From: Rhodobacterales bacterium
GTDB taxonomy: Bacteria; Pseudomonadota; Alphaproteobacteria; Rhodobacterales; Rhodobacteraceae
Direction: 5' to 3'
Assembly (NCBI GenBank): GCA_002746935.1
Contig: PDRW01000043.1
Span: forward strand, 1-55,676
Length of the DNA stretch: 55,676 bases
Of the stretch, positions 31,203-46,566 are shown piece by piece; the stretch's first letter is position 1; each line of letters opens with the position of its first letter. Position numbers and translations under genes: made by a program. The notes beneath the pieces are model-generated. The model was given only the letters and a program-made list of their open reading frames with translations. It was not told the DNA's origin and ran no database searches.

Positions 31203-31853
31203 TCACACCCGCACCAGAACCCCGTCGGTCAACTCGCAGGTGTCCGGCGCCACCGCCGCGCGGAACGCCGGGGTGTGGCTCACCAGCAGCATCGCCTGCG
31301 GCAGCCCGGTGAGGATCTCCACCAGCCGGGCCTCGTTGCGGGTGTCGAGCGCGTTGGTGGGCTCGTCGAGCAACAACACCTCCGGTTCCATCGCCAGCAC
31401 CGTCGCCAGTGTCACCAGCCGCTTCTCGCCGCCGGAAAGATGATGGGTGATGCGGTCGCGCAGATGGGTGAGCGCCAGCCGGGCCAGAATGTCATCGACG
31501 ATCGCCAGCGCCTCGTCGCGCGACTTGCCGAGGTTCAGTGGCCCGAAAGCGATGTCTTCGGCCACGGTGGGGCTGAACAACTGGTCGTCCGGATCCTGAA
31601 ACACGAAGCCCACCCGGCGGCGCACCTCATGAAAATCCGCCTCCTCCCGGCGCGGCTTGCCGAAGGCGACCACTTCGCCCGATGTGGGCGTCAGCAGGCC
31701 GACGATCATGCGCAGCAGCGTCGATTTCCCCGCTCCGTTGGCGCCGGCGATCGACAGCCGCTCGCCTGCTGACAGGCTCAGCGACGCGCCTTTGAGCAGC
31801 GGCGCATGGCCGGGATAGCCGAAGGCGATGTCGGACAGTTCAAGCAGGGGCAC
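31203..31853 (-). CDS. nikO: ECF metal transporter ATPase (NikO/CbiO type)
   Basis: The ATPase of about 216 residues energises an ECF-type metal uptake system. It has Walker A GANGAGKST, the Q-loop VFQDPDDQLFSPTV that marks the CbiO/NikO class, the signature HLSGGEKR and Walker B LLLDEPTNALD. I prefer GTG 31853, seven bases after GGAG; an in-frame TTG at 31859 is too close to that site. It overlaps the end of nikQ. The C terminus is short compared with the usual CbiO of about 270 residues. Confidence 0.88.
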   Translation of the reverse strand: MPLLELSDIAFGYPGHAPLLKGASLSLSAGERLSIAGANGAGKSTLLRMIVGLLTPTSGEVVAFGKPRREEADFHEVRRRVGFVFQDPDDQLFSPTVAEDIAFGPLNLGKSRDEALAIVDDILARLALTHLRDRITHHLSGGEKRLVTLATVLAMEPEVLLLDEPTNALDTRNEARLVEILTGLPQAMLLVSHTPAFRAAVAPDTCELTDGVLVRV

Positions 31854-32628
31854 GGGCAATCTCCAGAACGATGAGCGCCGCCAGCAGCAGCGCGAAGCCG
31901 GCGCCGAAGGCGATGTCCGCCGGGGTCAGGCGGAACTGGCGGATCAGCACGAAACGGCCGTTGAAGCCCCGGCATTTCATCGCTTCGAGGATGCGCTCGG
32001 AGCGTTCGACCGCGCGCACCAGCATCATGCCGACGAGATAGCCGTAGCTGCGGTAGGTGTGCCAGTTGCTGCCCGGCCGGAAGCCGCGCACCTTCATCGC
32101 CGCGATCAGACGGCGGTTTTCCTCGCGCAGCACTTCGATGTAGCGCACGGTGAACACCAGCAGGTGCACGAGGCGCTCCGGCAACCGGAGCGCGTTCAGC
32201 GCGTGGCCCATGGTCACCGCCTCCATCGAGCCCACCAGACACATCAGCGCCAGCGCCACCGCATTGGCGGTCAGGGCGATTTCGATGCCCTGAAACAGGC
32301 CCTCGCGGCTGGCGGCGAAACCCCAGATCGTGAACAGCGGGGTGCCGGGCACGGTGAAGGGCAGAAGCAGCAGAATGAACAGGATGAACCCGTCCATCGA
32401 GGCCATCTGCTTCAGCGTGCGCCGGGGCGGCAGGCCGGAGAAGGGCAGCAGTGCGACGGCGGCGGCGAAGGCGAGGGTGAGCACCAGAAGGTCGGAGAGC
32501 GCGACCACGCAGATGGCGAAGACGAGGGCGAGCACGATGCGCAGACGTTCGTCGCGCGCCGTGATCGCCCCGCTCTCCGTTCTGCCCGCCGCAGCAGGCC
32601 CGACGGTGCTATCCGACGCCCCGCCCAA
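31840..32628 (-). CDS. nikQ: ECF metal transporter transmembrane protein (NikQ/CbiQ type)
   Basis: The 262-residue protein is the energy-coupling membrane subunit. It has about five or six helices and two cytosolic coupling motifs, AMKVRGFR and AMKCRGF, whose Ala-Arg-Gly cores dock in the ATPase. The first possible start is TTG 32628, three bases after the nikL stop; no good ATG is found near it, so the exact start is uncertain. It overlaps nikO by 14 bases. Confidence 0.85.
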   Translation of the reverse strand: MGGASDSTVGPAAAGRTESGAITARDERLRIVLALVFAICVVALSDLLVLTLAFAAAVALLPFSGLPPRRTLKQMASMDGFILFILLLLPFTVPGTPLFTIWGFAASREGLFQGIEIALTANAVALALMCLVGSMEAVTMGHALNALRLPERLVHLLVFTVRYIEVLREENRRLIAAMKVRGFRPGSNWHTYRSYGYLVGMMLVRAVERSERILEAMKCRGFNGRFVLIRQFRLTPADIAFGAGFALLLAALIVLEIARAPA

Positions 32629-32631
32629 GCC

Positions 32632-33219
32632 TCAGCCCTGGAACCGCCGCCGCGCGACGAAGTAGAAGCCGAGCCCGAACAGCCCGATGATATAGCCGAT
32701 GCCGCCAAGCACGGTCTGGAAGCTGTTGTGCTCCTTGTAGGCGGAGATCTCCTGGCGCAGCGGCCGGATCTCTTCGTGCACCGCTTCGGCGATGGCGAGG
32801 CGTTCCTCGGTGGTCAGCGAGGCCACGGTGACACCGCCGGCGCCGGGCGCGGCGGCCGGCGTGCCGGCTTCCGCCGCGGCAAGCTCCTCGCCCACGGCGA
32901 TGATCTTCGCCACCTCTTCGGCGCTCATCGTTGCCTCGGCCACATGCCCCGCCCCGAGATCGGCGCGGAACTGATGCGCGACCGGCGTCGTCGGCGTGTA
33001 GAGGAAGAACCCGTCATCGTCGGTTACCGCCTCGCCGAGCTTGTTGCCCTCGGGATCAAAGACCTCGACGGTCTCGCTGACGGCCATGTCGCCGTTGGAA
33101 AATCCCAGCTCGCCCTCGATCTTGTCGCCCGAGGGGAAGATGCCGAACACCACCTTGTGGGCCGCCGCGGGCAGCGGCGCGAGGATGAGCGCGGCGAGCA
33201 ATGCAATGATGCGCAGCAT
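32632..33219 (-). CDS. nikL: ECF metal transporter auxiliary protein NikL
   Basis: The 195-residue protein has a signal peptide ending AAA, so the mature chain would start with histidine (HKVVFGIFPSGDKIEG). An extracytoplasmic domain resembling a carboxypeptidase-regulatory fold is followed by an Ala/Pro/Gly linker, a helical segment and one C-terminal membrane helix (GGIGYIIGLFGLGFYFVARR). The layout matches NikL, a small component of NikKMLQO systems. It lies between nikM and nikQ with three-base gaps. Confidence 0.75.
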   Translation of the reverse strand: MLRIIALLAALILAPLPAAAHKVVFGIFPSGDKIEGELGFSNGDMAVSETVEVFDPEGNKLGEAVTDDDGFFLYTPTTPVAHQFRADLGAGHVAEATMSAEEVAKIIAVGEELAAAEAGTPAAAPGAGGVTVASLTTEERLAIAEAVHEEIRPLRQEISAYKEHNSFQTVLGGIGYIIGLFGLGFYFVARRRFQG

Positions 33220-33222
33220 CGG

Positions 33223-33834
33223 TCAGACTCCTTGAATGGTGCCGAACAGGTCGGGTTTGACCTGGCGGACAAGATAGACGGCGGCACCGGTGAGCAGCGC
33301 CTCGATGACGATCACCGGGATATGGGTAAGGAACACCAGCTTGGCCTGGGGCAGGAATTCTTTTCCGCTGAGAGCCAGCGCGGCTGCCACGAAAGCCGTG
33401 GTCAGCACGATCGCCAGCCCGCCGCCGATCCCGCCCCAAAACGCGCTCTCGTCCGGGGTGCCACGGGCGATCGGCCCGCGGAACAGATACCACACGATCA
33501 CCGCCGGCCCGGCGATATTGAGCGTGTTGACCCCCAGCACGGTGACGCCGCCGAAACCGAAGAACACCGCCTGAAGCAACAGCCCCACGAACAGCGCCGG
33601 GAAGGCGGCCCAGCCGAGCACCAGCCCGGCAAGACCGTTGAGAATCAGATGCACCGAGGAGAAGCCGATCGGCACATGCACCAGCGAAGCCACGAAGAAG
33701 CTCGCCGAGAGCACCCCCGTGGCGGGGATGCGTTCGAGGGTGAGGTCTTTCAGCCCGCGCGCGATGCCGCCGGCGGCGAGCACCGCGCCGCCGATCACCA
33801 CGGGGTTGGACAGGGCACCGTCAGGGATATGCAT
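33223..33834 (-). CDS. nikM: ECF metal transporter substrate-capture protein (NikM/CbiM type)
   Basis: The 203-residue membrane protein starts MHIPDG, the CbiM/NikM signature in which the N-terminal amine and His2 bind Co or Ni. A second conserved histidine lies in SSVHLILNGLAGL. About seven helices follow. It binds the metal; whether cobalt or nickel cannot be decided from this sequence. It follows the DUF4198 gene by six bases. Confidence 0.9.
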   Translation of the reverse strand: MHIPDGALSNPVVIGGAVLAAGGIARGLKDLTLERIPATGVLSASFFVASLVHVPIGFSSVHLILNGLAGLVLGWAAFPALFVGLLLQAVFFGFGGVTVLGVNTLNIAGPAVIVWYLFRGPIARGTPDESAFWGGIGGGLAIVLTTAFVAAALALSGKEFLPQAKLVFLTHIPVIVIEALLTGAAVYLVRQVKPDLFGTIQGV

Positions 33835-33840
33835 GGATGG

Positions 33841-34626
33841 TTACTCCAGATCGTAGGCACGAATCCAGATCACCGCGTCCTGACTGAGCTCCTTGCCCTC
33901 ATACTCGGTCACGGGTCCGGAACCGAGCGCCGCAAAGCCCCAGTGCCCGGCGCGCGGCACGGCGAAGGAGAAGTAACCATCCTTGTCGGAGATCGCGACC
34001 ACGGCGCCGCCGGGCATGGTGCCGACGCTGGGGGCGGTGGTGGAGCCGGTCTTCATGTCGGGCTCGGAGGCCACGTATTCGATTTCGATCTCGGCGCCGG
34101 CCACCGGTTCGCCATTGGCGACCACACGGCCCGCGAAGTTGGACCCGGCGATGATGTTGTAGGGCTTCGACAGCGGGATGATTTCGGTGGGCAGGCCGAC
34201 GGGCGTATCCCAGTCGGTGGGCATCTCGTTGCGGTTCAGGAAAGACTTCGTGATCTGCTGGATGTAGATGTCTTCCGATTCCTCATAATAAGGCGCGGGC
34301 ACGGTAACGACCACATAGTCGCCCGACCGCTTGACCGGCACGGTCGCGTCATAGGCGATGGCCTCGTTTTCGGCGCCCTTGAAGGTGGTTTCGACCAGAC
34401 GGCCGGAGAGGTCGGTTTTCTCGCCGTTGTGGATCATGAAGAATTCCTGCGGCATGCCCATGTCCATCACATGGCCGTTCTCGAACGGATGCCAGAAGAT
34501 CAGCTTCATCGGCACATCGCCGGGATTCGCGATCTGGGTGTCTCCGGTGTATTGCAGGAGGAAATGCGCGCTGGCTGTGGCCGGCAATGCAATGGCCGCG
34601 GCGGCGGCGAGCAGGAGGGTTTTCAT
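33841..34626 (-). CDS. nikK: Periplasmic DUF4198 protein, NikK-type metal-uptake component
   Basis: The 261-residue protein has a signal peptide ending ASA, giving a mature N terminus that begins with histidine (HFLLQYTGD). The DUF4198 body contains HPFENGHVMDMGMP (His/Met rich) and a C-terminal beta-sandwich (GYFSFAVPRAGHWGFAALG). DUF4198 proteins are the first gene of NikKMLQO-type operons, as here. It probably hands metal to NikM in the periplasm. It is the first gene after the cobalamin riboswitch at 34770-34959. Confidence 0.8.
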   Translation of the reverse strand: MKTLLLAAAAAIALPATASAHFLLQYTGDTQIANPGDVPMKLIFWHPFENGHVMDMGMPQEFFMIHNGEKTDLSGRLVETTFKGAENEAIAYDATVPVKRSGDYVVVTVPAPYYEESEDIYIQQITKSFLNRNEMPTDWDTPVGLPTEIIPLSKPYNIIAGSNFAGRVVANGEPVAGAEIEIEYVASEPDMKTGSTTAPSVGTMPGGAVVAISDKDGYFSFAVPRAGHWGFAALGSGPVTEYEGKELSQDAVIWIRAYDLE

Positions 34627-35431: not shown

Positions 35432-37153
35432 TCAGCTGATCTGGATCTGCATCTGCTTCTCGCCGTCCTCGCCGACCATATGCACCGCGCAGGCGATGCA
35501 GGGGTCGAAGCTGTGGATGGTGCGCAGGATCTCGAGCGGCTGTTCCGGCACCGCGAGATTGTGGCCCTTGAGCGCGGCCTCGTAGGGGCCGGCGGCGCCG
35601 GTTTCGTCGCGGGGGCCGGCGTTCCACGTGGTGGGCACGATCGCCTGGTAATTGGCGATCTTGCGGTTCTCGATCACGATCCAGTGGCCGAGCGCCCCGC
35701 GCGGGGCCTCCATATAGCCCGCCCCTCTCGCATGTTTCGGCCAGGTCGAAGGATCCCACAGGGTGTTGTTGTGGGTCTTCAGGTCGCCGGTGGCGATATT
35801 GGCGATCAGATCGTTGTACCAGCCGCGCATCCAGTCGAGGACGATCTTGGTCTCCAGCGTCCGGGCGGCGGTGCGGCCGAGGGTGGAGTAGAGCGCCTCG
35901 ATCGGCACGTCGAGGGTTGCCAGCGTCGAATCCACCAGCTCCTGCGTATGGGGCTCGCCTGAGGCGTAGAGCATGAGCACCCGGGCGAGCGGCCCCACTT
36001 CCATCGCCTTGCCCTTCCAGCGCGGCGACTTCATCCAGGAATAGCCCTTGTCGACGTCGAGCTGCTCATAGGGCGGTTTCGGGCCGTCATAGGCAAGCTC
36101 GGTCTCGCCGGCATAGGGATGCAGCCCGGTACCGGGGCCGCTTTGATACTTGTACCAGGCGTGGTCGACATATTCCTCGATCTCGCCGTCGGTATGCAGA
36201 TCCACCTCGTGGATCGTCGACAGGTCGCGGTCGAGGATCACCCCGCGCGGCACCAGGAAGCTCGACGGATCCCAGTAATTGCCATTGGTGGGGAAGTCGC
36301 CATAGGTCAGGAAATTGCCTACGCCTTCGCCCATCGCGCCCCAGTCCTTGTAGAAGGAGGCGATCGCCAGCGTGTCGGGCAGATAGGCCTGATTCACGAA
36401 GGCTTCCATCTTGTCGATCACGTTGGAGACCTCGGCGAGGTCTTCCATGGTCAGCCCGCCATCGGCATTGGGGTCGATCGGGCAGGGCACGCCGCCGACG
36501 AGGAAGTTGGGGTGCGGGTTCTTGCCGCCGAAGATCGTGTGCAGCTTGACCGCATCCCGCTGCCAGGCGAGCGCGTCGAGGTAATGGGCGACCGCCATCA
36601 GGTTGGCTTCCGGCGGCAGCTTGTATTCGGGATGCCCCCAGTAGCCATTGGCGAAGATGCCGAGCTGGCCCTGTTCGACGAAGACCTTCAGCTTTGTCTT
36701 CACATCGGCGAAATAGCCCGGGCTCGACCGCGGGTAGTTCGACAGCGATTGCGCGAGTTCCGAGGTGGCCTTGGGGTCGGCGTCGAGGGCCGACACCACG
36801 TCGACCCAGTCGAGCGCGTGCAGGTGGTAGAAGTGCATCACATGGTCATGCACATATTGTGCCGCGATCATCAGGTTGCGGATCAGCTGGGCGTTTTTCG
36901 GGATCTCGATCTTCAGCGCATCCTCCACCGAGCGCACCGAGGCCATGCCGTGCACCAGAGTGCAGACGCCGCAGATGCGCTGGGCGAAGGCCCAGGCGTC
37001 GCGCGGGTCGCGGTCCTTTAGGATGATCTCGATGCCGCGCACCATGGTGCCGGAGCTGTAGGCTTCGGCGATCTTCGCGCCCTCCATCTGCGCTTCGATG
37101 CGCAGGTGGCCTTCGATCCGGGTGATCGGGTCAACGACCAGTCTCTTGTTCAT
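35432..37153 (-). CDS. hynL: [NiFe] hydrogenase large subunit, Isp type
   Basis: The 573-residue subunit carries the NiFe(CN)2CO site. Ligand motifs are intact: RIEGH at 12-16, RICGVC with Cys61 and Cys64, and DPCIACAVH with Cys552, Cys555 and His558. A 15-residue tail (559-573) follows His558 and should be removed by the HynD endopeptidase. Operon order hynS-isp1-isp2-hynL places it with group 1e (Isp1-type) hydrogenases known from purple sulfur bacteria. It starts in a four-base overlap with isp2 and ends at a strong terminator. The protein should be carried across the membrane with the Tat-exported small subunit. Confidence 0.94.
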   Translation of the reverse strand: MNKRLVVDPITRIEGHLRIEAQMEGAKIAEAYSSGTMVRGIEIILKDRDPRDAWAFAQRICGVCTLVHGMASVRSVEDALKIEIPKNAQLIRNLMIAAQYVHDHVMHFYHLHALDWVDVVSALDADPKATSELAQSLSNYPRSSPGYFADVKTKLKVFVEQGQLGIFANGYWGHPEYKLPPEANLMAVAHYLDALAWQRDAVKLHTIFGGKNPHPNFLVGGVPCPIDPNADGGLTMEDLAEVSNVIDKMEAFVNQAYLPDTLAIASFYKDWGAMGEGVGNFLTYGDFPTNGNYWDPSSFLVPRGVILDRDLSTIHEVDLHTDGEIEEYVDHAWYKYQSGPGTGLHPYAGETELAYDGPKPPYEQLDVDKGYSWMKSPRWKGKAMEVGPLARVLMLYASGEPHTQELVDSTLATLDVPIEALYSTLGRTAARTLETKIVLDWMRGWYNDLIANIATGDLKTHNNTLWDPSTWPKHARGAGYMEAPRGALGHWIVIENRKIANYQAIVPTTWNAGPRDETGAAGPYEAALKGHNLAVPEQPLEILRTIHSFDPCIACAVHMVGEDGEKQMQIQIS

Positions 37154-38427
37154 TTCCCCTCTCCTTCGTCGTCAAGGTATTCGGCCATCATCTCGGTGAG
37201 ACCGGCCACTTCGATATCGTCCATCTCGTTGATTTCGAGCTGGTCTTCGAGAGTGGAATGGCAGAAGGCGCACATGGTGACGATCTTCTCGGGGGCCACG
37301 TCCTGGATCTGCTTCTTCTTGCGGCCAAAGGCCTTTTCCTGAAGTTCGCTGGCGCGCTGGTTGGCACCGACCCCGCCGCCGCCGGAGCAGCACCAGTTCA
37401 TCACGCCGGCATCTTCGGTCTCGATGAAATTGTCGGCCACCATGCCCAGCAGGTTTCGCGGTTCCTGGATGATGCCGCCGCGGCGGGCCACCTGGCAGGG
37501 GTCGTGGAAGGTGATCCGGGCATGGTCCTTCTCGCCGTTGACCTTGAGCTTGCCCTCGGCGCGGAAACGGTCGATCAGCTCGATGATATGCAGCACCTCG
37601 AACGGGTATTCCTTGCCGAGCAGGTTCGGGCCTTCCCAGCGGATCGCCTGAAAGGCATGGCCGCATTCGGGCGAGATCATCCCCTTGACGCCAAGCTCCT
37701 CGGCCACGTCCACCAGACGTTTCACCAGGTTCGCGGCGACGTCGCGGTTGCCGAGCTGGATGCCGACATTGGTGGCCTCGAAGCCCTTGGTCGAGATCGT
37801 CCAGCTTTCGCCGGCCTGATCCATGATCCGCGCCACCGAAACGATCATCTCCTCACCGGAGGCGATCTCGTGCGAAGAGAGGTTCAGCATCCAGTTCACG
37901 CCGGGCTTGTCGACGTTGATCTTGAGCCCGGTGATCTTCTCGGCCTGTTCGATGCGTTTGGTGAGGGCCTTGGTGAGGTTGCCCATGGGCGAGGTGCCGT
38001 CGGTATGGCGCACGGCGGCGCCCATCAGTTCCTTTGGCCCGTGACCGGAAGCCGACATACCTTCGCGCATCTTGCGGATCATCAGGGTGATGTCGTTGCC
38101 CACCGGGCAGACCAGCGAGCAGCGGCCACAGAGCGAGCAACTGTCATAGACCAGGTCTTCCCATTCGGTGAGCATCTCGTCATCGACCGTCCTGCCGAGG
38201 CCGAGCATCGACTTCACCTTGCCGATCAGGGTGAATTCGTTCTCCCAGATCCGCTTCATCGGTTCGAGCTTGTGGATCGGGGTGTAACGTGCGTCGCCGG
38301 TTTCCTTGTAGAACAGGCAGGCCTCGGCGCAGAGGCCGCAGCTCACGCAGGAGGTGAAGAAGCTCGCCACCGGCGCGTCGATCTCCTCACGCAGGGCGTT
38401 GAGGCCCCGTTCGAGTGTCGCGGTCAT
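37150..38427 (-). CDS. isp2: Isp2: HdrD/DsrK-like iron-sulfur protein
   Basis: The 425-residue protein is cytosolic and resembles heterodisulfide reductase HdrD and DsrK. Two [4Fe-4S] ferredoxin motifs are CVSCGLCAEAC (Cys27, 30, 33, 37) and CSLCGRCSLVC (Cys97, 100, 103, 107). A complete CCG domain has Cys311 (HDPC), Cys346/347 (WCC) and Cys386/389 (CAFC), as in the noncubane cluster sites. The first CCG repeat is reduced to a lone Cys255 (SPECGHAF). It probably accepts electrons from Isp1 and passes them to a thiol or sulfur carrier. It overlaps isp1 by 41 bases. Confidence 0.9.
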   Translation of the reverse strand: MTATLERGLNALREEIDAPVASFFTSCVSCGLCAEACLFYKETGDARYTPIHKLEPMKRIWENEFTLIGKVKSMLGLGRTVDDEMLTEWEDLVYDSCSLCGRCSLVCPVGNDITLMIRKMREGMSASGHGPKELMGAAVRHTDGTSPMGNLTKALTKRIEQAEKITGLKINVDKPGVNWMLNLSSHEIASGEEMIVSVARIMDQAGESWTISTKGFEATNVGIQLGNRDVAANLVKRLVDVAEELGVKGMISPECGHAFQAIRWEGPNLLGKEYPFEVLHIIELIDRFRAEGKLKVNGEKDHARITFHDPCQVARRGGIIQEPRNLLGMVADNFIETEDAGVMNWCCSGGGGVGANQRASELQEKAFGRKKKQIQDVAPEKIVTMCAFCHSTLEDQLEINEMDDIEVAGLTEMMAEYLDDEGEGK

Positions 38428-39025
38428 GCATCAGCTTGGTAAAGGGGAAAGCCACCATCAGCAGTTCGGCGGTGAGGATATGGATGCCCATCCACAGGGT
38501 CGCGTCGACGCCGAACACCCGGTTGACGGCGATATAGCCGGTGATCAGCGGCAGCACCGAGAGCACCAGCACCAGCCAGTCGTCGAAACGGGTGAGCGCC
38601 TTGCGGACGGGGTCGGTCGTGCGGGTGTAAGCCAGGGCGATCGCGGCGATCACGCTGAGCGCGGCGGCGGTTTCGATCAGCGCCTTGTTGAAGTCGAACC
38701 ATGACAGGCCGATCAGGCTGTCGATCAGCGCGATATGCGCGCCGAGAAACAGAAACGCGATGAAGAAGCCGAGGTGAAACACATAGCCCGCCACATAGGT
38801 GACGGGGGCCTCTTTCATCATGCCCTTGCGGGCGAGGGAGCGCGAGAAGATCGTTTTCAGCCCCTGTGCCACCGGGTTGCCCTTGGGCCTGGCGAAATCC
38901 TTCTTGCGGCCGAGAATCAGGATCTCGATCACCCGCAGCAGAATGCCGCCGACCATGATCACCAGGGCGATGTTGAAGGCGGGCCCCCGGACCCACATCA
39001 GGAAGTCGAAATAGGCGTTGTTCAT
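38387..39025 (-). CDS. isp1: Isp1: NarI/DsrM-like membrane cytochrome b
   Basis: The 212-residue protein has about five membrane helices and resembles the gamma subunit of nitrate reductase (NarI) and DsrM. Histidines in membrane segments (YVFHLGFF, LGAHIAL, GIHILTAE) are candidate haem b ligands. It should receive electrons from HynS and link the hydrogenase to quinone and/or Isp2. The start overlaps the hynS stop by four bases. Isp1-Isp2 pairs define the group 1e hydrogenases. Confidence 0.9.
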   Translation of the reverse strand: MNNAYFDFLMWVRGPAFNIALVIMVGGILLRVIEILILGRKKDFARPKGNPVAQGLKTIFSRSLARKGMMKEAPVTYVAGYVFHLGFFIAFLFLGAHIALIDSLIGLSWFDFNKALIETAAALSVIAAIALAYTRTTDPVRKALTRFDDWLVLVLSVLPLITGYIAVNRVFGVDATLWMGIHILTAELLMVAFPFTKLMHDRDTRTGPQRPA

Positions 39026-40113
39026 GATTTTCTCTCCAGATCATGCGCATCGACAACCTCGTGCGCCTTCTCTGCCCTGGATCTGGTCGACCGGGCCAGG
39101 GCACCGCCCGCGGCGCCGAGCGCGGCGCCGGCGGCGATGGCGGCATAGCCCGCCTGGCGGTAATCGCCCGCGGGGGCCGACAGCGGCTTGTAGAAGCCGC
39201 CGTTGTCCCAGAAATCGGGTTCGGTGCAGCCGAGGCAGGGGTGGCCGGCCTGAATCGGGAAGGAGACGCCGTCGTTCCACTTCACCGTGGCGCAGACCGA
39301 TTTGGTGGTCGGGCCCTTGCAGCCGAGCTTGTAGAGGCACCAGCCCTTGCGCGCGCCTTCGTCGTCGAAGGTTTCGGCGAATTTGCCCTTGTCGTAGAAC
39401 GGGCGGCGGTAGCAGCGGTCGTGGATGGTTTCGCCGAAAAACGCCTTCGGCCGCCCGAGCTCGTCGAGTTCGACCGACTCGAGCCCGAGGGCGAGGATCT
39501 GGGCGATCACGCTGGTCATCACGATCGGGATCGGCGGGCAGCCGGGGATGTTGATGATCGGCTTGTCGGTGATGATCTCGCTGACGCCGACCGCGCCGGT
39601 CGGGTCCGGCTGCGCCTGCGGCAGCCCGCCATAGGCGGCGCAGGTGCCGACGGCGATGATCGCCGCTGCGCCCTTGGCGGTGTCCTTCAGCATCTCGAGG
39701 TTGGAGATGCCGGCGACGCAGCTGAACTCCGGGCGCTCGACCGGGATCGAGCCATCAACGATCACCACATATTTGCCCCATTGTTCCTTCATCGCATGTT
39801 CACGCGCTTCCTCCGCGGCGTGGCCCGACGCGGCCTGAAGGGTGTGGTGGTAGTCCAGCGAGATCGCGTTGAAGATCAGGTCTTCGAGCGTCGGCGCGTG
39901 CGACCGGGTGATCGCCTCGGTGCAGCCGGTGCATTCCTGGAAGCTGAGCCAGATCACCGAAGTGCGCGCGTTTTCGAGCGCGTAGGCGAATTTCGGGGCC
40001 AGTGCCGGGGGCAGGGCAAGGGCGCTGGTGAGCGAGGCACAGTATTTCATGAAGCCCCTTCGGCTCACCCCATGGGCGCGCATCAACTCCGGTAGCATGG
40101 GTTTGTCTGCCAT
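39022..40113 (-). CDS. hynS: [NiFe] hydrogenase small subunit with Tat signal
   Basis: The 363-residue subunit carries three Fe-S clusters. A twin-arginine signal (SRRGFMK, Arg18-Arg19) directs folded export. Proximal cluster ligands are Cys61, Cys64, Cys158 and Cys192; distal ligands are His231, Cys234, Cys259 and Cys265; the medial cluster has Cys274, Cys293 and Cys296 with Pro286 in place of a fourth Cys, typical of a [3Fe-4S] centre. No extra cysteines mark an O2-tolerant proximal cluster. A short Ala/Gly-rich hydrophobic segment (about 321-340) may anchor the C terminus. hupH lies 18 bases upstream. Confidence 0.94.
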   Translation of the reverse strand: MADKPMLPELMRAHGVSRRGFMKYCASLTSALALPPALAPKFAYALENARTSVIWLSFQECTGCTEAITRSHAPTLEDLIFNAISLDYHHTLQAASGHAAEEAREHAMKEQWGKYVVIVDGSIPVERPEFSCVAGISNLEMLKDTAKGAAAIIAVGTCAAYGGLPQAQPDPTGAVGVSEIITDKPIINIPGCPPIPIVMTSVIAQILALGLESVELDELGRPKAFFGETIHDRCYRRPFYDKGKFAETFDDEGARKGWCLYKLGCKGPTTKSVCATVKWNDGVSFPIQAGHPCLGCTEPDFWDNGGFYKPLSAPAGDYRQAGYAAIAAGAALGAAGGALARSTRSRAEKAHEVVDAHDLERKS

Positions 40114-40131
40114 TTCGCTCCTCCGTGGGGG

Positions 40132-40566
40132 TTATTTCGACTTGCTGCGGGCCGCAAGATGGGCCTCCAGCCGGGCGAGCCCGTCGCGGGCATCCGGGAT
40201 CTGGGTTTTCAGGATCTCGGGCACGAATGTGATTTCGACGAAGCGCGACAGCGTCTCGCCGTTCTGGTCGTAGTGGTCGACCCGCCAGACGCCCGGCGTG
40301 CCGGTCTCCACCACCTGACTGGTGCCGAGCACCGTTATCGTGGCGCGGATCTCGCCCTCGCCGAGCGCGGCGTCGAGCGCCCGCTCGTCGCCGGCGCTGA
40401 AGGGCAAGGCGCCGAGGTCGATGATTGTCGGCGCGCCGGTGTCGAGCAGCCGGGCCAGCGCGGTTGCGATCTCTCTCAGCACCGGGCCGGCATTGCCGGT
40501 CGGAACATGCGCCCGAAGCTCCTGGAGCGAATTCACCTGCCCCGATGTCTTCCGATCAGCGCTCAC
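40132..40566 (-). CDS. HupH/HyaF-like hydrogenase maturation protein
   Basis: The 144-residue protein matches the C-terminal half of HupH/HyaF (HupH_C): VLREIATALARLLDTGAPTIIDLGALPFSAGDERAL and GVWRVDHYDQNGETLSRFVEITFVP. Full HupH proteins are about twice as long, so this is a short form. Such proteins help assemble the Fe-S-containing small subunit. It is the first gene of the hydrogenase operon, and an FNR-type box lies 87 bases upstream. Confidence 0.82.
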   Translation of the reverse strand: MSADRKTSGQVNSLQELRAHVPTGNAGPVLREIATALARLLDTGAPTIIDLGALPFSAGDERALDAALGEGEIRATITVLGTSQVVETGTPGVWRVDHYDQNGETLSRFVEITFVPEILKTQIPDARDGLARLEAHLAARSKSK

Positions 40567-40652
40567 GCCTGCCTCCTCAGATCAGCCTCTTGCCAAAACC
40601 GGACCGCCTGGTTTCGGCTGGCAATACCTGCCAACCGGCGGCCGCTGCCGTC

Positions 40653-40666
40653 TTGATCTGAGTCAA
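40653..40666 (-). promoter_or_regulatory. FNR/FnrL-type box upstream of the hydrogenase operon
   Basis: TTGATCTGAGTCAA matches the family consensus TTGAY-N4-RTCAA exactly and is close to a perfect palindrome. It sits in the 210-base gap between hynD and hupH, on the upstream side of hupH, where it would act as an activating or repressing site. It suggests that O2 availability sets hydrogenase expression. Confidence 0.7.
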
Positions 40667-40776
40667 TCCATATTGAAATTCCGATGCTTGCATAGAAGCA
40701 AATGGTCGCACCGGGGTGGAAAACCTGAGTGTTTTTATCCAGTTAAGCCGCGCTTTGCCGGCCTGCCCGGGGGATG

Positions 40777-41259
40777 TCAGCCGCGCCAGCGGGCGGCGAT
40801 CTCGAACACCGCTTCGATGGCGGCCGGCACCGCTTCGGCCACCGCAGGGGTCATCGCCTCGCCAACCCCGAGATGCGCGGGCTGTACCCCCACCAGCGCC
40901 CGTTTGTCGGGCATCGCGCCGCGCAGGCGCAGCCCGTCGAGCATGTCGTCAAGCCCGATGTCATGCGGGTTGCGGCCGCGGGTGCGCAGGAAACGGTCCA
41001 TCTCCGTGCCTTCGAACACCTGCACGGCACCGGCGTGTTGCCTGAGCCAGGCGGCGTCGATCACGATCATCGCATCCGAGTCCTCCATCTCCACCAGCAG
41101 CGTGAGGCCCATGGTGCCGCCGTCGAGGGCACGGATACCCAGCGCCTCTGCCCGCGGGTCGCGCGCCACCGCTTCGGCGACGCGAACGCCGACCTGTTCG
41201 TCGGTGAGCAGGGTGTTGCCAAGGCCGAGAACCAGGATGTTTGTGCGGTTGTCTTTCAT
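40777..41259 (-). CDS. hynD: Hydrogenase maturation endopeptidase (HynD/HupD type)
   Basis: The 160-residue protease removes the C-terminal tail of the large subunit after nickel insertion. It has the family N terminus VLGLGNTLLTDEQVG. By alignment with HybD the nickel ligands should be Glu21, Asp68 (VIDAA) and His99 (NPHD). It lies upstream of and codirectional with the hydrogenase operon, but a 210-base gap with an FNR box separates them, so it probably has its own promoter. Confidence 0.9.
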   Translation of the reverse strand: MKDNRTNILVLGLGNTLLTDEQVGVRVAEAVARDPRAEALGIRALDGGTMGLTLLVEMEDSDAMIVIDAAWLRQHAGAVQVFEGTEMDRFLRTRGRNPHDIGLDDMLDGLRLRGAMPDKRALVGVQPAHLGVGEAMTPAVAEAVPAAIEAVFEIAARWRG

Positions 41260-42312: not shown

Positions 42313-42969
42313 TCAATCCGGCTTAGCAACCGCAGTCCCAGTCGCCGTCATTGCCGCCCCAGCCGATGCCGTCGTCGTCATCGTTGTTGCCGCCGCCGCC
42401 GTTATCGCCGCCGCCGTTGTCGCCGCCGCCGTTGTCGCCGCCGCCGTTGTCGCCGCCGCCGTTGTCGCCGCCGCCGTTCCATTGCCGCCGCCGCCGTTGC
42501 CGCCGCCGCCGTTGCCGCCGCCGCCGCCGCCGCCGTTATCGCCGCCGCCGTTGCGGTCGCGGTCATGGTCGTCGTCGTCGTTCCAGTTGTGGGATCCGTT
42601 GCTGCCACCGAAGCCGCCGTTGCCGGTCGATGCGGTCTGCACGTTACTCAAAGCGCGGGCAAACCCCGGGCATTGCTGGTCAGTGTCCCGCAGGATCACC
42701 TCGAACAGCCGGTGCTTGCGGATGTATTGCAGCATCTGTACCGAAACGACGCGGCAGCCACAGAAGTGGTCGACGACGCCCCGGTAATTCGCCGCAATGT
42801 CCAGATCGAGATCAAGCGCACGGCGGGTAAGCTGCAAGTTGCACTCTTCCACGGGCCTGTCGAGCCCGAGAGAGGCGAGGGTGGTTTCTGCCTGTGCGGG
42901 GCCGTTGGTTGCCACCAGCGAAGCCGCGACAACAAGACTCCCGAAGAGTCCCTTCATAGTGTTACTCAT
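42313..42969 (-). CDS. Exported protein with Gly/Asn/Asp repeats, apparently frameshifted
   Basis: The 218-residue uninterrupted frame has a signal peptide (cut after AQA), a Cys-containing domain of about 80 residues (VEECNLQLTRRALDLDL, HFCGCRVVSV, QQCPGF) and a low-complexity tail. The tail reads NGGGDNGGGG... and then changes to TAAATTAAA... after residue about 163. Reading one base over from there restores GDNGGG repeats and ends GNDGDWDCGC with a TAA at 42323-42325. The switch is explained by one missing base between 42478 and 42479. It may be a mutation, a slip in the repeat or an assembly error. The function is not recognised. Confidence 0.7.
   Translation of the reverse strand: MSNTMKGLFGSLVVAASLVATNGPAQAETTLASLGLDRPVEECNLQLTRRALDLDLDIAANYRGVVDHFCGCRVVSVQMLQYIRKHRLFEVILRDTDQQCPGFARALSNVQTASTGNGGFGGSNGSHNWNDDDDHDRDRNGGGDNGGGGGGGNGGGGNGGGGNGTAAATTAAATTAAATTAAATTAAAITAAAATTMTTTASAGAAMTATGTAVAKPD
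42401..42475. repeat. Five 15-bp repeats inside the Gly-rich gene
   Basis: The unit GTTGTCGCCGCCGCC occurs five times in a row (the first has GTTATC). Read as minus-strand codons each unit gives Asp-Asn-Gly-Gly-Gly. The suspected frameshift lies just beyond it at 42478. The repeat is long and near-identical, a good substrate for slippage and copy-number change. Confidence 0.85.
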
Positions 42970-43448: not shown

Positions 43449-44501
43449 ATGGCCCGCATTGCCACCTACAATGTCGAGTGGTTCAACGCGTTGTTCGACG
43501 ATGAAAGCTGCCTGCTCGACGACAACGCATGGTCGTCCCGCCAGGGTGTGCGGCGGCACGATCAGCTTGCCGCGCTCGGCATCGTCTTCACCGCGCTCGA
43601 CGCCGATGCGGTGATGGTGATCGAGGCCCCCGACGACAACCGCAAACGCTCCACCACCCGGGCGCTGGAAAGCTTTGCCGCCGCCTTCGGGCTCAGAACC
43701 CGCAAGGCGCTTCTGGGGTTTCGCAACCAGACCCAGCAGGAAATCGCCCTGCTCTACGATCCCGATGTGTTCTCCGCCAGACACGATCCGCTGGGCGAGG
43801 AGACCGGCAAGAAAGGGGCGCGCGATGCGCCGCGGTTCGACGGGGTGTTCCGTTTCGATCTCGATACCGATGCCAGCCCCGAGCTCATCACCTTCTCGAA
43901 GCCGCCGCTCGAGGTCGATCTGAGCTATCGCGCTACGGGGGCGCATCTGCGGCTTGTCGGGGTGCATGTGAAATCCAAGGCGCCGATCGGGGCGAGGAGC
44001 GCCGACGAAGTCATCCGGCTGGCGATCCAGAACCGGCGCAAACAGCTTGCCCAATGCGTCTGGCTGCGCCAGCGGGTCGACCAGTATCTTGCGGCCGGTA
44101 TGCCGCTGGTGGTGCTGGGCGATCTCAACGATGGCCCCGGGCTCGACGAATACGAAAAGCTGTTTGGCCGGTCGGGGGTCGAGATCGTGCTGGGCGAAAA
44201 CGGCCACGAGCCGCTCCATGATCCCCATGCCCGCATGGTGCTGAGCCGCCGGGGCGGGGCAAGGCCGGCTACCGCGCGGTTCTATCTGCATCACGAAAAA
44301 CGCTACATCCAGGCGTTGCTGGACTATGTGATGATTTCAGGCCGGTTGCGCCGGGGCACGGCCCCCAGGTGGCGGATCTGGCATCCGTTCGACGATCCGG
44401 CCTGCTACCACCGGCCAGAGTTGCGCGAGGCCCTGCTTGCGGCGTCGGATCATTTCCCGGTCTCGGTCGACCTTGATCTGGGGGTGTTGCACGCCAGCTA
44501 G
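43449..44501 (+). CDS. Endonuclease/exonuclease/phosphatase-family protein
   Basis: The 350-residue protein has the EEP fold. The N-terminal RIATYNVEWFN motif matches the metal-binding Asn region, VMVIEA corresponds to the catalytic Glu, VHVKSKAP and VVLGDLNDGPG to the His and Asp/Asn sites, and SDHFPVSVDL to the C-terminal catalytic Asp-His. All key motifs appear intact. It has no obvious signal peptide at the chosen ATG 43449; 111 upstream codons in frame lack one too. The substrate is unknown. Confidence 0.8.
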   Translation: MARIATYNVEWFNALFDDESCLLDDNAWSSRQGVRRHDQLAALGIVFTALDADAVMVIEAPDDNRKRSTTRALESFAAAFGLRTRKALLGFRNQTQQEIALLYDPDVFSARHDPLGEETGKKGARDAPRFDGVFRFDLDTDASPELITFSKPPLEVDLSYRATGAHLRLVGVHVKSKAPIGARSADEVIRLAIQNRRKQLAQCVWLRQRVDQYLAAGMPLVVLGDLNDGPGLDEYEKLFGRSGVEIVLGENGHEPLHDPHARMVLSRRGGARPATARFYLHHEKRYIQALLDYVMISGRLRRGTAPRWRIWHPFDDPACYHRPELREALLAASDHFPVSVDLDLGVLHAS

Positions 44502-44625
44502 GGTTTTGGTGTCGGGCATCGCCCTGAGGTTGTGCGGCGCAGCTTTCAGGCGTAATTCGGTCAACAAAACCAATACCGGCAGGTGTATTGTTGCCGAGAT
44601 CGGGACAACAGCGAGGAGGGGCAAT

Positions 44626-46566
44626 ATGGGTGCCGTCATCATCGACACGGATCAGACCGGCCAGTACCGGATTGGTGCAGGCGGTTTCGTCTTGCTGACG
44701 GAAGAGGCCGCGCTCACTGTCGCGGATACGATCGCCCCGGGCTTCCTCGCCGATACCGACGAGACCTTCACGCTGACCGTTCACGGGCAGGTCCGCACTT
44801 TCGGCGCGGCGGTGTCGATGGGGCTCACGGGCGGCAGCGACAGGCTCGGCGCGCTCACGGTGGGCGAAACCGGGCTGCTCCAGGCGCTGACCGATGCCGC
44901 GGTCGAGGTGCAGCGCTCCGGCACCCGGATCGACAATGACGGGGCGATCTACGGTGGCCATGCGGGCATTGCCTATGGCGCGGGAGTGGTGAGCGGGCTG
45001 CTGTCCAACAGCGGCCGCATCGTCTCGCTGCTGAACAGCGGCATTGCCGCGGCCGGCGGGCAGGGGGACGCAACGGCGGGTCTGTTCCGGATTGTCAACA
45101 CCGGCCGTATCGAGGCGGCGCGGGACGGGGTGTCGGTGAGCCACGAGAGCCTTGATCTGACCAATCGGGGCGAAATCGTCGCTGCGGACAGCGGTATTGC
45201 GGTCAGCGACGATCCGGGCGCGGGCAACGGCCTGACGCTGGTCAATTCCGGCCTGATCCAGGGCGGGGACGCGGCCGTTGACGCAACCGGGCAGGCCGAT
45301 GCCCTGACCAACAGCGGCACCCTGCAAGGGGCGGTGCGCCTGGGCGGGGGCGACAACGGCTTTGTCAATTCCGGGACGGTCACCGGCACGGTCTCGGCGG
45401 GCACGGGGGCCGACAGGCTGGAAAACACCGGTGTGGCCGCGGCGCTGGCGCTTGGCGACGGCGCCAACGGCGTGACCAATGCGGGCCGCATCGCCAGCCT
45501 CGCCACCGGCAGCGGCAAAGATGCTTTCACCAACGAAAGGGCAGGGGTCGTGACCGGCACGGTCACGCTCGGCGGTGGCGCGGATCGTGTCGTCAACCAC
45601 GGCACCCTGTCTGCGGGGCTGGACCTCGGGGAAGGTGACGACAGGCTGATTTCCAGCGGGACCATCACCGGCACCGTCGTTCTTGGCGAGGGCAGCAACC
45701 GGGTGCGGATCACCGGCGAGCTGTTTGGCGACCTGCTCGCGGGCGATGGCCGGGATATTGCCAACCTCCACGGCCATGTCGGCGGCAACATCCGCCTCGG
45801 GGGCGGCGCCGACCGGCTGCACAGCGGTGGCGTGATCACCGGCGAGGTTGACCTCGGCACCGGTGACGACGTGCTGCGGCTGGGGCCAGGGGCCACCGCC
45901 CCGCTGGACCGGATCGACGGTGGCGCCGGGTCCGACAGGCTGCTCACCTTCGTTGCCGTGGAAGACGTGTTCAACTTCGAGCTTGTCGACCTCAAGGGCA
46001 ATGCCGATCTGTCTTTCACCGGCGATGACCTGGCCTGCACCATCCATGGCAACAGCGGGGCCAACGAGATCGACGGCGGCGGCGGGCCCGATACGCTGTC
46101 TGGCTGGAACGGGGCCGATACCCTGATCGGTGGCTGGGGGCACGACACGCTCCATGGCGGGCGCGGTGCCGATACGCTGATCGGCGGCAAGGGCAACGAC
46201 AGGCTGCACGGCGGGCGCGGCCATGACGTGCTTGTGGGCGGGCGCGGTGCCGACAGGCTGATCGGTGGCAACGGGCGGGACGTGTTCGCCTACGACACCG
46301 CTGCCGACAGCCGGATGCAGACGCCCGATGTGATCCTCGGCTTTCAGCGCGGGCTCGACGTGATTGATCTTTCGGAGGTGGCGGAGGGCGGGATCAACTG
46401 GCTCGGCAAGACGTTCTTCACCGGGTCCGGCGCTGCGGAAGCGCGCTTCAACGCTGATGAAAACGGCGCCTGGATCCGGGTCGATGCCGATGGTGACGGC
46501 CGGGTCGACATGAACATCGTGCTGCCGGGTGTCGACGCCCTTTCGGCCTCCGACTTCCTGTTCTGA
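44626..46566 (+). CDS. RTX-type protein with N-terminal beta-helix-like repeats
   Basis: The 646-residue protein has no N-terminal signal. Residues about 100-440 are imperfect repeats of the form xxNSGxIxG...LGxGxD (for example FVNSGTVTGTV), which suggest a right-handed beta-helix. From about 475 to 560 there are at least six GGxGxDxL nonapeptides (GGRGADTLIGGKGNDRL), the calcium-binding beta-roll. The C terminus ends in a typical type I secretion tail (VDALSASDFLF). No secretion ATPase or adaptor genes are nearby. GAGGAGGGG precedes the ATG at 44626. It is probably secreted; its activity is unknown. Confidence 0.85.
   Translation: MGAVIIDTDQTGQYRIGAGGFVLLTEEAALTVADTIAPGFLADTDETFTLTVHGQVRTFGAAVSMGLTGGSDRLGALTVGETGLLQALTDAAVEVQRSGTRIDNDGAIYGGHAGIAYGAGVVSGLLSNSGRIVSLLNSGIAAAGGQGDATAGLFRIVNTGRIEAARDGVSVSHESLDLTNRGEIVAADSGIAVSDDPGAGNGLTLVNSGLIQGGDAAVDATGQADALTNSGTLQGAVRLGGGDNGFVNSGTVTGTVSAGTGADRLENTGVAAALALGDGANGVTNAGRIASLATGSGKDAFTNERAGVVTGTVTLGGGADRVVNHGTLSAGLDLGEGDDRLISSGTITGTVVLGEGSNRVRITGELFGDLLAGDGRDIANLHGHVGGNIRLGGGADRLHSGGVITGEVDLGTGDDVLRLGPGATAPLDRIDGGAGSDRLLTFVAVEDVFNFELVDLKGNADLSFTGDDLACTIHGNSGANEIDGGGGPDTLSGWNGADTLIGGWGHDTLHGGRGADTLIGGKGNDRLHGGRGHDVLVGGRGADRLIGGNGRDVFAYDTAADSRMQTPDVILGFQRGLDVIDLSEVAEGGINWLGKTFFTGSGAAEARFNADENGAWIRVDADGDGRVDMNIVLPGVDALSASDFLF

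Follow-up and report, generated by a model that had tools for sequence, protein, structure and literature searches.

To our knowledge, the electron acceptor of the Isp-type [NiFe] hydrogenases is still open. Among the closest described systems is the HydSL (HynSL)-Isp1-Isp2 enzyme of Thiocapsa roseopersicina/bogorovii. In T. bogorovii, HydSL has been linked to the H2-dependent reduction of elemental sulfur, its sole known major function being S0 reduction in the dark, and a resemblance of Isp2 to heterodisulfide reductases has been noted (PMC10892978, section 14). We analysed a stretch of 55,676 nucleotides from a Rhodobacterales bacterium (assembly GCA_002746935.1, contig PDRW01000043.1), hereafter the window, which is the whole of this contig (C91). 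It carries the same gene set in the same order as Thiocapsa, with a HynL 73% identical to that of T. roseopersicina (L052). By gene order and phylogeny, the predicted enzyme is an Isp-type, group 1e [NiFe] hydrogenase. Taken alone this hydrogenase is ordinary; its company of sulfur genes is not. We see an even chance that electrons from H2 pass through Isp1 to the CCG centre of Isp2 and there reduce sulfur bound to DsrC to sulfide.

T. bogorovii carries dsrABEFHCMKLJOPNRS, according to a passage of PMC10892978, whereas the host genome studied here has only a dsrB remnant and no DsrK above the cut-off was found in it. The DsrMK(JOP)-DsrC system of sulfate reducers and sulfur oxidisers likewise joins a membrane b cytochrome to a CCG iron-sulfur (Fe-S) protein, and is described in part of PMC10504309 as reducing the DsrC trisulfide; here, in contrast, the electrons would come from periplasmic H2, Isp2 falls well short of the DsrK cut-off (210.8 bits for 400, model NF045796) and DsrAB is missing. 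In the Tmc and Hmc complexes of Desulfovibrio, TmcC and HmcE are nearest to Isp1 and TmcB and HmcF are close to Isp2, but here the hydrogenase is in the operon, which has no cytochrome c gene, and the scores are below the Tmc/Hmc cut-offs. The HdrABC-MvhAGD heterodisulfide reductase/[NiFe] hydrogenase (5odc) is a soluble, flavin-bifurcating complex that holds two non-cubane clusters; Isp2, by comparison, contains one full CCG domain and pairs with a membrane b cytochrome. Desulfovibrio vulgaris, the host of FlxABCD-HdrABC, has DsrAB. In this species, DsrC acts as a redox carrier for an Hdr-type complex outside sulfite reduction (part of PMC10504309); FlxABCD-HdrABC is a soluble Hdr complex, whereas the system here is a membrane hydrogenase.

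The host genome (2.81 Mb, 94 contigs, 83.9% complete) contains a single PF04358 match, a DsrC that stands last in a dsrE-dsrF-dsrH-dsrC run on contig C38. It scores 159.2 bits with TIGR03342 (cut-off 53.5) and its C-terminal end, QACKIAGLPKPTGCV, retains both C-terminal cysteines, which makes it a true two-cysteine DsrC. DsrE, DsrF and DsrH are all above their family cut-offs, the four genes are open, and DsrE keeps Cys78, the sulfur-carrying residue in Allochromatium vinosum according to part of PMC3397948. No dsrB match was found in this genome at its given completeness; no separate genome-wide search for dsrA was made. Directly upstream of dsrE lies a remnant of the 3' end of dsrB (region L090 of C38, 8395-8487), 31 codons long and 74% identical to the C-terminal region of DsrB from a dsrAB-carrying relative, G013 (E 2.6e-10); beyond a few codons following it, L090 holds no other DsrB match. 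Upstream of the remnant is a divergent cysG (NF007922, 534.6 bits for a cut-off of 400). Thus dsrB was cut away at the locus and not just missed by binning. A dsrM remnant downstream of dsrC (L090, 10.0-11.0 kb) was also sought and none was seen; the rows returned in that search, like the long L126 rows, proved to be antisense frames lying opposite dsrE and were set aside. On this evidence, the dsrAB genes required by the Dsr pathway of sulfite reduction or sulfur oxidation appear to be lacking from the host genome. The second DsrC cysteine is described, in a passage of PMC3397948, as restricted to organisms with DsrAB, with few exceptions, and the genomes studied here are further exceptions. 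A two-cysteine DsrC kept without dsrAB therefore suggests another partner, and DsrK-like Isp2, or the GlpC' protein described below, would explain it.

Isp2 carries such a candidate centre. Its five CCG cysteines are conserved in all the 89 rows aligned, a set that contains duplicates, two N-terminally cut sequences (L015, L046) and a single GlpC' gene entered twice. The corresponding columns C310, C345, C346, C385 and C388 (numbering without Met1) are invariant in 46 rows, while the extra Cys255 is a serine in 6 of the 89. Loss of the centre in the low-identity Isp2 group was considered and ruled out, as every row keeps the five cysteines. The predicted model of residues 176-420 (same numbering) adopts an HdrB-like fold, with 5odc_B among its matches; that no entry under the name DsrK or Isp2 stood among the matches listed carries no weight. 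From its ligands and this model, Isp2 is predicted to have a CCG fold of the heterodisulfide reductase type. Its low DsrK score and its hydrogenase neighbours set it apart from the DsrK of DsrMKJOP, and a DsrK profile search of the host genome returned only two matches, Isp2 and GlpC' (contig C65), neither of them above the cut-off.

To place the hydrogenase itself, we scanned named genomes with HynL and retained the best 80 loci of at least 588 relatives; among them are Marimonas, Maritimibacter, Aliiruegeria, Tropicimonas, Sinirhodobacter, Celeribacter, Thiocapsa, Thiothrix and gill symbionts. In the HynL tree (94 rows), the window joins its nearest row, L020 (90% identity over 530 columns of the tree alignment, 83% in the best segment of the scan), inside an alphaproteobacterial clade of 20 rows with a Shimodaira-Hasegawa-like approximate likelihood ratio (SH-aLRT) support of 95. 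It falls together with the Isp rows of Thiocapsa, Thiothrix and Alphaproteobacteria, and four rows of 55-56% identity, which we take to be group 1d by our own label, form the opposite side with a support of 100; the label groups cover 24 of the 94 rows. In 76 of the 80 relatives, Isp2 is encoded in the same stretch; at the remaining 4 loci, hynL lies where the contig ends. In a family sample of 394 Rhodobacteraceae genomes, one per species, 70 show some HynL match and ten have a full-length HynL of at least 66% identity. The next full-length HynL is at 56%, not counting that of G347, which is split into two pieces (65% and 48%); this genome, with DsrC and a split dsrB, was excluded from the ten. 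Isp2 lies beside hynL in all ten loci of at least 66%, against none of 20 loci with a HynL near 55% (1.5 kb flanks). An earlier note on this DNA had proposed an Isp-type, group 1e enzyme; the tree agrees, as the window groups with Isp-type rows and not with another group. The same note regarded its occurrence in Rhodobacterales as notable, a view weakened by the several Rhodobacteraceae genera among the 80 loci, the ten family genomes and the alphaproteobacterial clade, which make this hydrogenase a known kind in its known range.

The sulfur genes are physically linked to the hydrogenase in several relatives. At four loci, three from Tropicimonas and one from Aliiruegeria (L010, L012, L014, L016), dsrE2-tusA-dsrE-dsrF-dsrH-dsrC comes directly after hynL and is followed by a short CxxCH protein, a YeeE-type sulfur transporter, a rhodanese and hypC-A-B-D (the proteins of L016 were family-scanned); the CxxCH was seen by eye, the weak cytochrome match of this protein being below the cut-off. 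No dsrB above the cut-off was found in the genomes of L012, L014 and L016, the three searched. Using a custom profile, we detected a DsrC-family gene in the stretch at 13 of the 80 loci, where a rough estimate, not a computed one, would give about one by chance. Among them, besides the four loci above, three gammaproteobacterial loci (L046, L054, L073) encode a DsrC-like protein with several C-terminal cysteines one gene after hynL, and L041 has a DsrC-family gene about 1 kb before hupH. The DsrC-family genes of Sideroxydans (L059, L063, L065) and of Thiocapsa/Thiorhodococcus (L039, L045) lack one or both C-terminal cysteines and are not taken as support.

Two other arrangements were seen around these hydrogenases. 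Similar proteins of about 150 amino acids (aa) are encoded after hynL in L046 (2893-3345), L054 (10876-11328), L073 (11783-12235), L040 (11274-11726) and L041 (5775-6230), directly preceding the DsrC-like gene in the first three; the L046 copy has no Pfam match. In G220, a genome with an Isp hydrogenase and no DsrC, hdrB-, hdrA-, hdrC-, hdrB- and GcvH-like genes, dsrE2 and tusA lie upstream of hupD (L203, 77-6750, contig C7), and the hydrogenase order is hynS-isp1-hynL-isp2. This hdr-GcvH-dsrE2-tusA arrangement occurs in L203 only, among the loci compared, and resembles the sHdr-lipoate-protein sulfur system. It hints at a possibly wider link between Isp hydrogenases and cytoplasmic sulfur carriers.

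A second CCG protein accompanies DsrC in the host genome. On contig C65 (L091, 6340-11964), glpK, glpA and glpB, all above their cut-offs, lie with a gene that we call glpC'. Its product scores only 39.1 and 34.0 bits with the GlpC models PRK11168 and TIGR03379 (cut-offs 278 and 279.9) and so falls outside GlpC; its best model is HmcF (185.6 bits, cut-off 750), and it is HmcF/TmcB/DsrK-like while remaining below all cut-offs. In L016, glpC'-glpA-glpB is found about 1.5 kb upstream of hupH, and glpC' is on the hynL contig in the L012 genome and on a different contig in the L014 genome. From the 80 loci, 49 group 1e genomes were searched, and 4 of them have GlpC', namely three Tropicimonas and G013. 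In two further regions (L202, 3882-8046; L208, 9672-14010), glpA-glpB have the GlpC slot taken by a DsrK/HmcF-like protein, which in L202 adjoins dsrE2-tusA and dsrEFHC. In the one paper found on DsrC together with GlpC (PMC7787665), 'GlpC' names a protein whose gene is next to that of an Isp-type hydrogenase.

We then compared the occurrence of these genes across genomes. For the 19 alphaproteobacterial group 1e loci, 18 genomes were searched; DsrC is present in 14 and dsrB above the cut-off in 11. Within the 394 family genomes, 29 have DsrC (PF04358), leaving 365 with none, and 26 have dsrB (E up to 1e-20). Exactly three have DsrC and no dsrB: the host genome itself (G000), the L012 genome (G025) and G274. 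Each of them belongs to the ten genomes whose full-length HynL reaches at least 66%, and they alone of the 394 have GlpC' (E up to 1e-40). With the host genome excluded, the chance that both others fall among nine of 393 genomes is 4.7e-4, and that of an identical GlpC' pair is 1.3e-5; these values presuppose independent genomes, and related species are not fully independent; leaving out the host genome makes the values weaker, yet they stay small. The two sets together, minus four shared genomes, give 24 distinct alphaproteobacterial group 1e genomes. DsrC is present in 18 of them: in 17 out of 17 where Isp2 has at least 55% identity, against one of seven (G274) where it has at most 38%. In a tree of DsrC (69 rows), which is built on a short alignment and leaves many forks open, the DsrC of the host genome groups with 47 other two-cysteine rows, duplicates included, and pairs with that of G013 (support 96/91), while the DsrC of Tropicimonas and of G274 stand together elsewhere (86/93). 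Given these two separate placements, the presence of DsrC in the absence of dsrAB probably has two or more origins. Moreover, among the rows compared, G013 is the nearest kin for HynL, DsrC and GlpC' alike, genes on three contigs, which argues against a binning error.

In the mechanism that we favour, HynSL would split H2 in the periplasm, as part of a membrane-spanning enzyme, and the electrons would cross the membrane through the hemes of Isp1 to a cytoplasmic Isp2. The single CCG (non-cubane Fe-S) centre of Isp2 would then reduce a disulfide, trisulfide or persulfide of DsrC, releasing H2S and restoring the DsrC thiols. DsrEFH would load sulfane sulfur on DsrC, in Tropicimonas probably through TusA and DsrE2; such a delivery by DsrEFH is reported for A. 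vinosum in part of PMC3397948 and for cable bacteria in part of PMC13293266. GlpABC with its DsrK/HmcF-like C subunit would be a second electron entry, from glycerol 3-phosphate. Because dsrAB is gone, DsrC would be unable to pass sulfur on to sulfite, and the pathway should therefore run as sulfur reduction. The lack of dsrB and the known function of Thiocapsa HydSL are our grounds for this direction. The suggestion of the earlier note that H2 oxidation may feed a thiol or sulfur carrier is supported, not proved, by the DsrC run, the loss of dsrB, the linkage and the co-occurrence. More tentatively, and at somewhat less than even chances, we propose a DsrAB-less Dsr pathway in heterotrophic marine Rhodobacteraceae, with sulfane sulfur as acceptor and DsrC as a cytoplasmic hub reduced by both Isp2 (from H2) and GlpC' (from glycerol 3-phosphate). 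This pathway would have arisen two or more times, dsrEFHC being retained or gained in the absence of dsrAB.

Several observations weigh against the reduction of DsrC-bound sulfur by this hydrogenase. DsrC is missing in 6 of the 24 distinct genomes (4 of the 18 in the locus set and 3 of the 10 in the family set, G064 being the L068 genome and counted in both), and their Isp2 keeps the CCG ligands; DsrC is therefore not required by every Isp hydrogenase, and a general rule to that effect fails. G274 has a low-identity Isp2 (38%) and a HynL on a long, deep branch, and its dsrEFHC adjoins glpABC' and not the hydrogenase. The rule that GlpC' means no dsrAB holds in the 394 genomes and is broken by G013, outside this sample, which has both. 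In the host genome, whose completeness is limited, the hydrogenase, dsrEFHC and glpABC' are on separate contigs (C91, C38 and C65). Finally, the group 1e hydrogenase of the Riftia symbiont is reported, in part of PMC11636981, to rise under sulfide and oxygen limitation and to be allied with genes for carbon fixation by the reductive tricarboxylic acid (rTCA) cycle and for denitrification/nitrate reduction, which does not point to sulfur reduction.

A plain uptake hydrogenase would account for part of this. HynSL would then feed the quinone pool through Isp1 for respiration, Isp2 being a relay or regulatory subunit and DsrC unrelated, and the genomes without DsrC indicate that the enzyme works without it somewhere. 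His 84, 97, 182 and 200 of Isp1 are identical in all 74 rows, a pattern that a two-heme b cytochrome should show. We nevertheless find this explanation doubtful, since it leaves unexplained both the CCG ligands kept in 89 out of 89 rows and the linkage with DsrC. The confinement of GlpC' to exactly the DsrC-positive, dsrB-negative genomes of the 394 also fits a reverse flow, in which GlpABC' would oxidise glycerol 3-phosphate and reduce DsrC, a mere thiol shuttle with no sulfur chemistry, and the Isp hydrogenase would vent H2. By standard potentials, producing H2 from glycerol 3-phosphate is uphill, and dsrEFH here, like tusA, dsrE2, the rhodanese and YeeE in Tropicimonas, would be superfluous, so that we consider this flow improbable, even though the DsrC of D. 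vulgaris is described, in a passage of PMC10504309, as interacting with FlxABCD-HdrABC in fermentative growth.

Two further explanations concern the dsrEFHC genes. DsrEFH-DsrC could serve the formation of 2-thiouridine in tRNA, like TusBCDE of Escherichia coli, the company of the hydrogenase being due to chance. The families are indeed shared, TIGR03342 covering TusE and DsrC and the TIGR models of DsrE, DsrF and DsrH covering TusD, TusC and TusB too. Such a tRNA role is very unlikely, however, as 365 of the 394 family genomes lack PF04358, so tRNA thiolation seems not to need the DsrC family; the host DsrC scores 132.6 bits with the TusE model PRK11508, below the cut-off of 191, and has both C-terminal cysteines, which are usually missing where there is no DsrAB, according to part of PMC3397948. 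Even less credible, to us, is the view of dsrEFHC as a decaying leftover of a sulfur-oxidation pathway that was lost, without any function today: the dsrB remnant beside dsrE does show decay of the locus, but the four genes are open with intact catalytic cysteines, and the same state recurs in the second DsrC lineage (Tropicimonas, G274), with the genes in new clusters.

The operon hupD-hupH-hynS-isp1-isp2-hynL is intact on the minus strand (Table 1). The tight order from hupH to hynL given in the earlier note, with an 18-base gap and overlaps of 4, 41 and 4 bases, is exact; hupD, absent from that order, also falls inside the span 35432..41259. The intact ligands that it described are likewise found: RICGVC starts at residue 59 of HynL and DPCIACAVH at 550, and HynS has the twin-arginine motif SRRGFMK plus CTGC and CLGC. 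Because of this signal, the catalytic half of the enzyme would be periplasmic. The proximal motif of HynS is CTGC and has no extra cysteine of the kind present in oxygen-tolerant enzymes. The two ferredoxin motifs and the one full CCG domain announced for Isp2 were recovered by Pfam and by motif reading. Isp1, in contrast, had been called NarI/DsrM-like, but it has no Pfam match at E 0.001 and profiles place it nearest to TmcC (115.7 bits, cut-off 240) and HmcE (94.5 bits, cut-off 275). As anticipated, the hyp genes lie outside the window: a genome search located hypD on contig C83, flanked by hypC (TIGR00074, 87.1 bits, cut-off 48) and hypE (TIGR02124, 412.3 bits, cut-off 251.6), and hypF on C46.

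Table 1. Genes of the hydrogenase operon and of the neighbouring probable nickel-uptake group in the window
Feature	Position	Strand	Supporting matches and motifs
hynL, [NiFe] hydrogenase large subunit, 573 aa	35432..37153	-	PF00374 (NiFeSe_Hases) 785 bits; RICGVC and DPCIACAVH motifs
isp2, DsrK/TmcB/HmcF-like Fe-S protein, 425 aa	37150..38427	-	two 4Fe-4S motifs, one full CCG domain
isp1, probable b-type cytochrome membrane anchor, 212 aa	38387..39025	-	TmcC/HmcE-like below cut-offs; hydrophobic segments; conserved His
hynS, small subunit, twin-arginine signal, 363 aa	39022..40113	-	TIGR00391 hydA 400.9 bits (cut-off 179.5); SRRGFMK, CTGC
hupH, hydrogenase expression protein	40132..40566	-	PF04809 (HupH_C) 100 bits
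hupD, maturation endopeptidase	40777..41259	-	PF01750 70.4 bits; TIGR00072 118.2 bits (cut-off 47.45)
DUF4198 protein, first of probable nickel-uptake group	33841..34626	-	PF10670 170.6 bits
CbiM/NikM-like energy-coupling factor (ECF) substrate protein	33223..33834	-	PF01891 178.8 bits; NF004905 278 bits (cut-off 173)
NikL-family nickel/cobalt ECF subunit	32632..33219	-	NF058648 196.8 bits (cut-off 100)
CbiQ-like ECF T component	31840..32628	-	TIGR02454 131.4 bits (cut-off 111.8)
CbiO-like ATP-binding component	31203..31859	-	PF00005 118 bits; TIGR01166 cbiO 186.3 bits (below cut-off 211.8)

The nickel/cobalt ECF transporter group (31203-34626) is located about 0.8 kb downstream of hynL, on the same strand. 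Elsewhere in the window, a small protein (42313-42969) with an Asn/Gly-rich repeat, an Ala/Thr-rich tail and no Pfam match changes composition along its length, which may reflect a shifted reading frame. In a long open reading frame (44437-46566), PF00353 and PF08548 reveal RTX calcium-binding repeats and a C-terminal domain of the serralysin type; no catalytic domain was matched.

Among the open-licence papers listed, no title or opening of an abstract describes DsrC paired with an Isp hydrogenase where dsrAB is missing; subscription reviews on DsrC may cover part of this. Strains with DsrC and the hydrogenase but no DsrAB would offer a clean test, in which an H2-dependent redox change of DsrC would not be due to sulfite chemistry. 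If the proposal is true, dsrC without dsrAB would be more than a marker of tRNA thiolation, and some marine Rhodobacteraceae could form sulfide from sulfur with H2 or glycerol, a capacity overlooked by dsrAB surveys.

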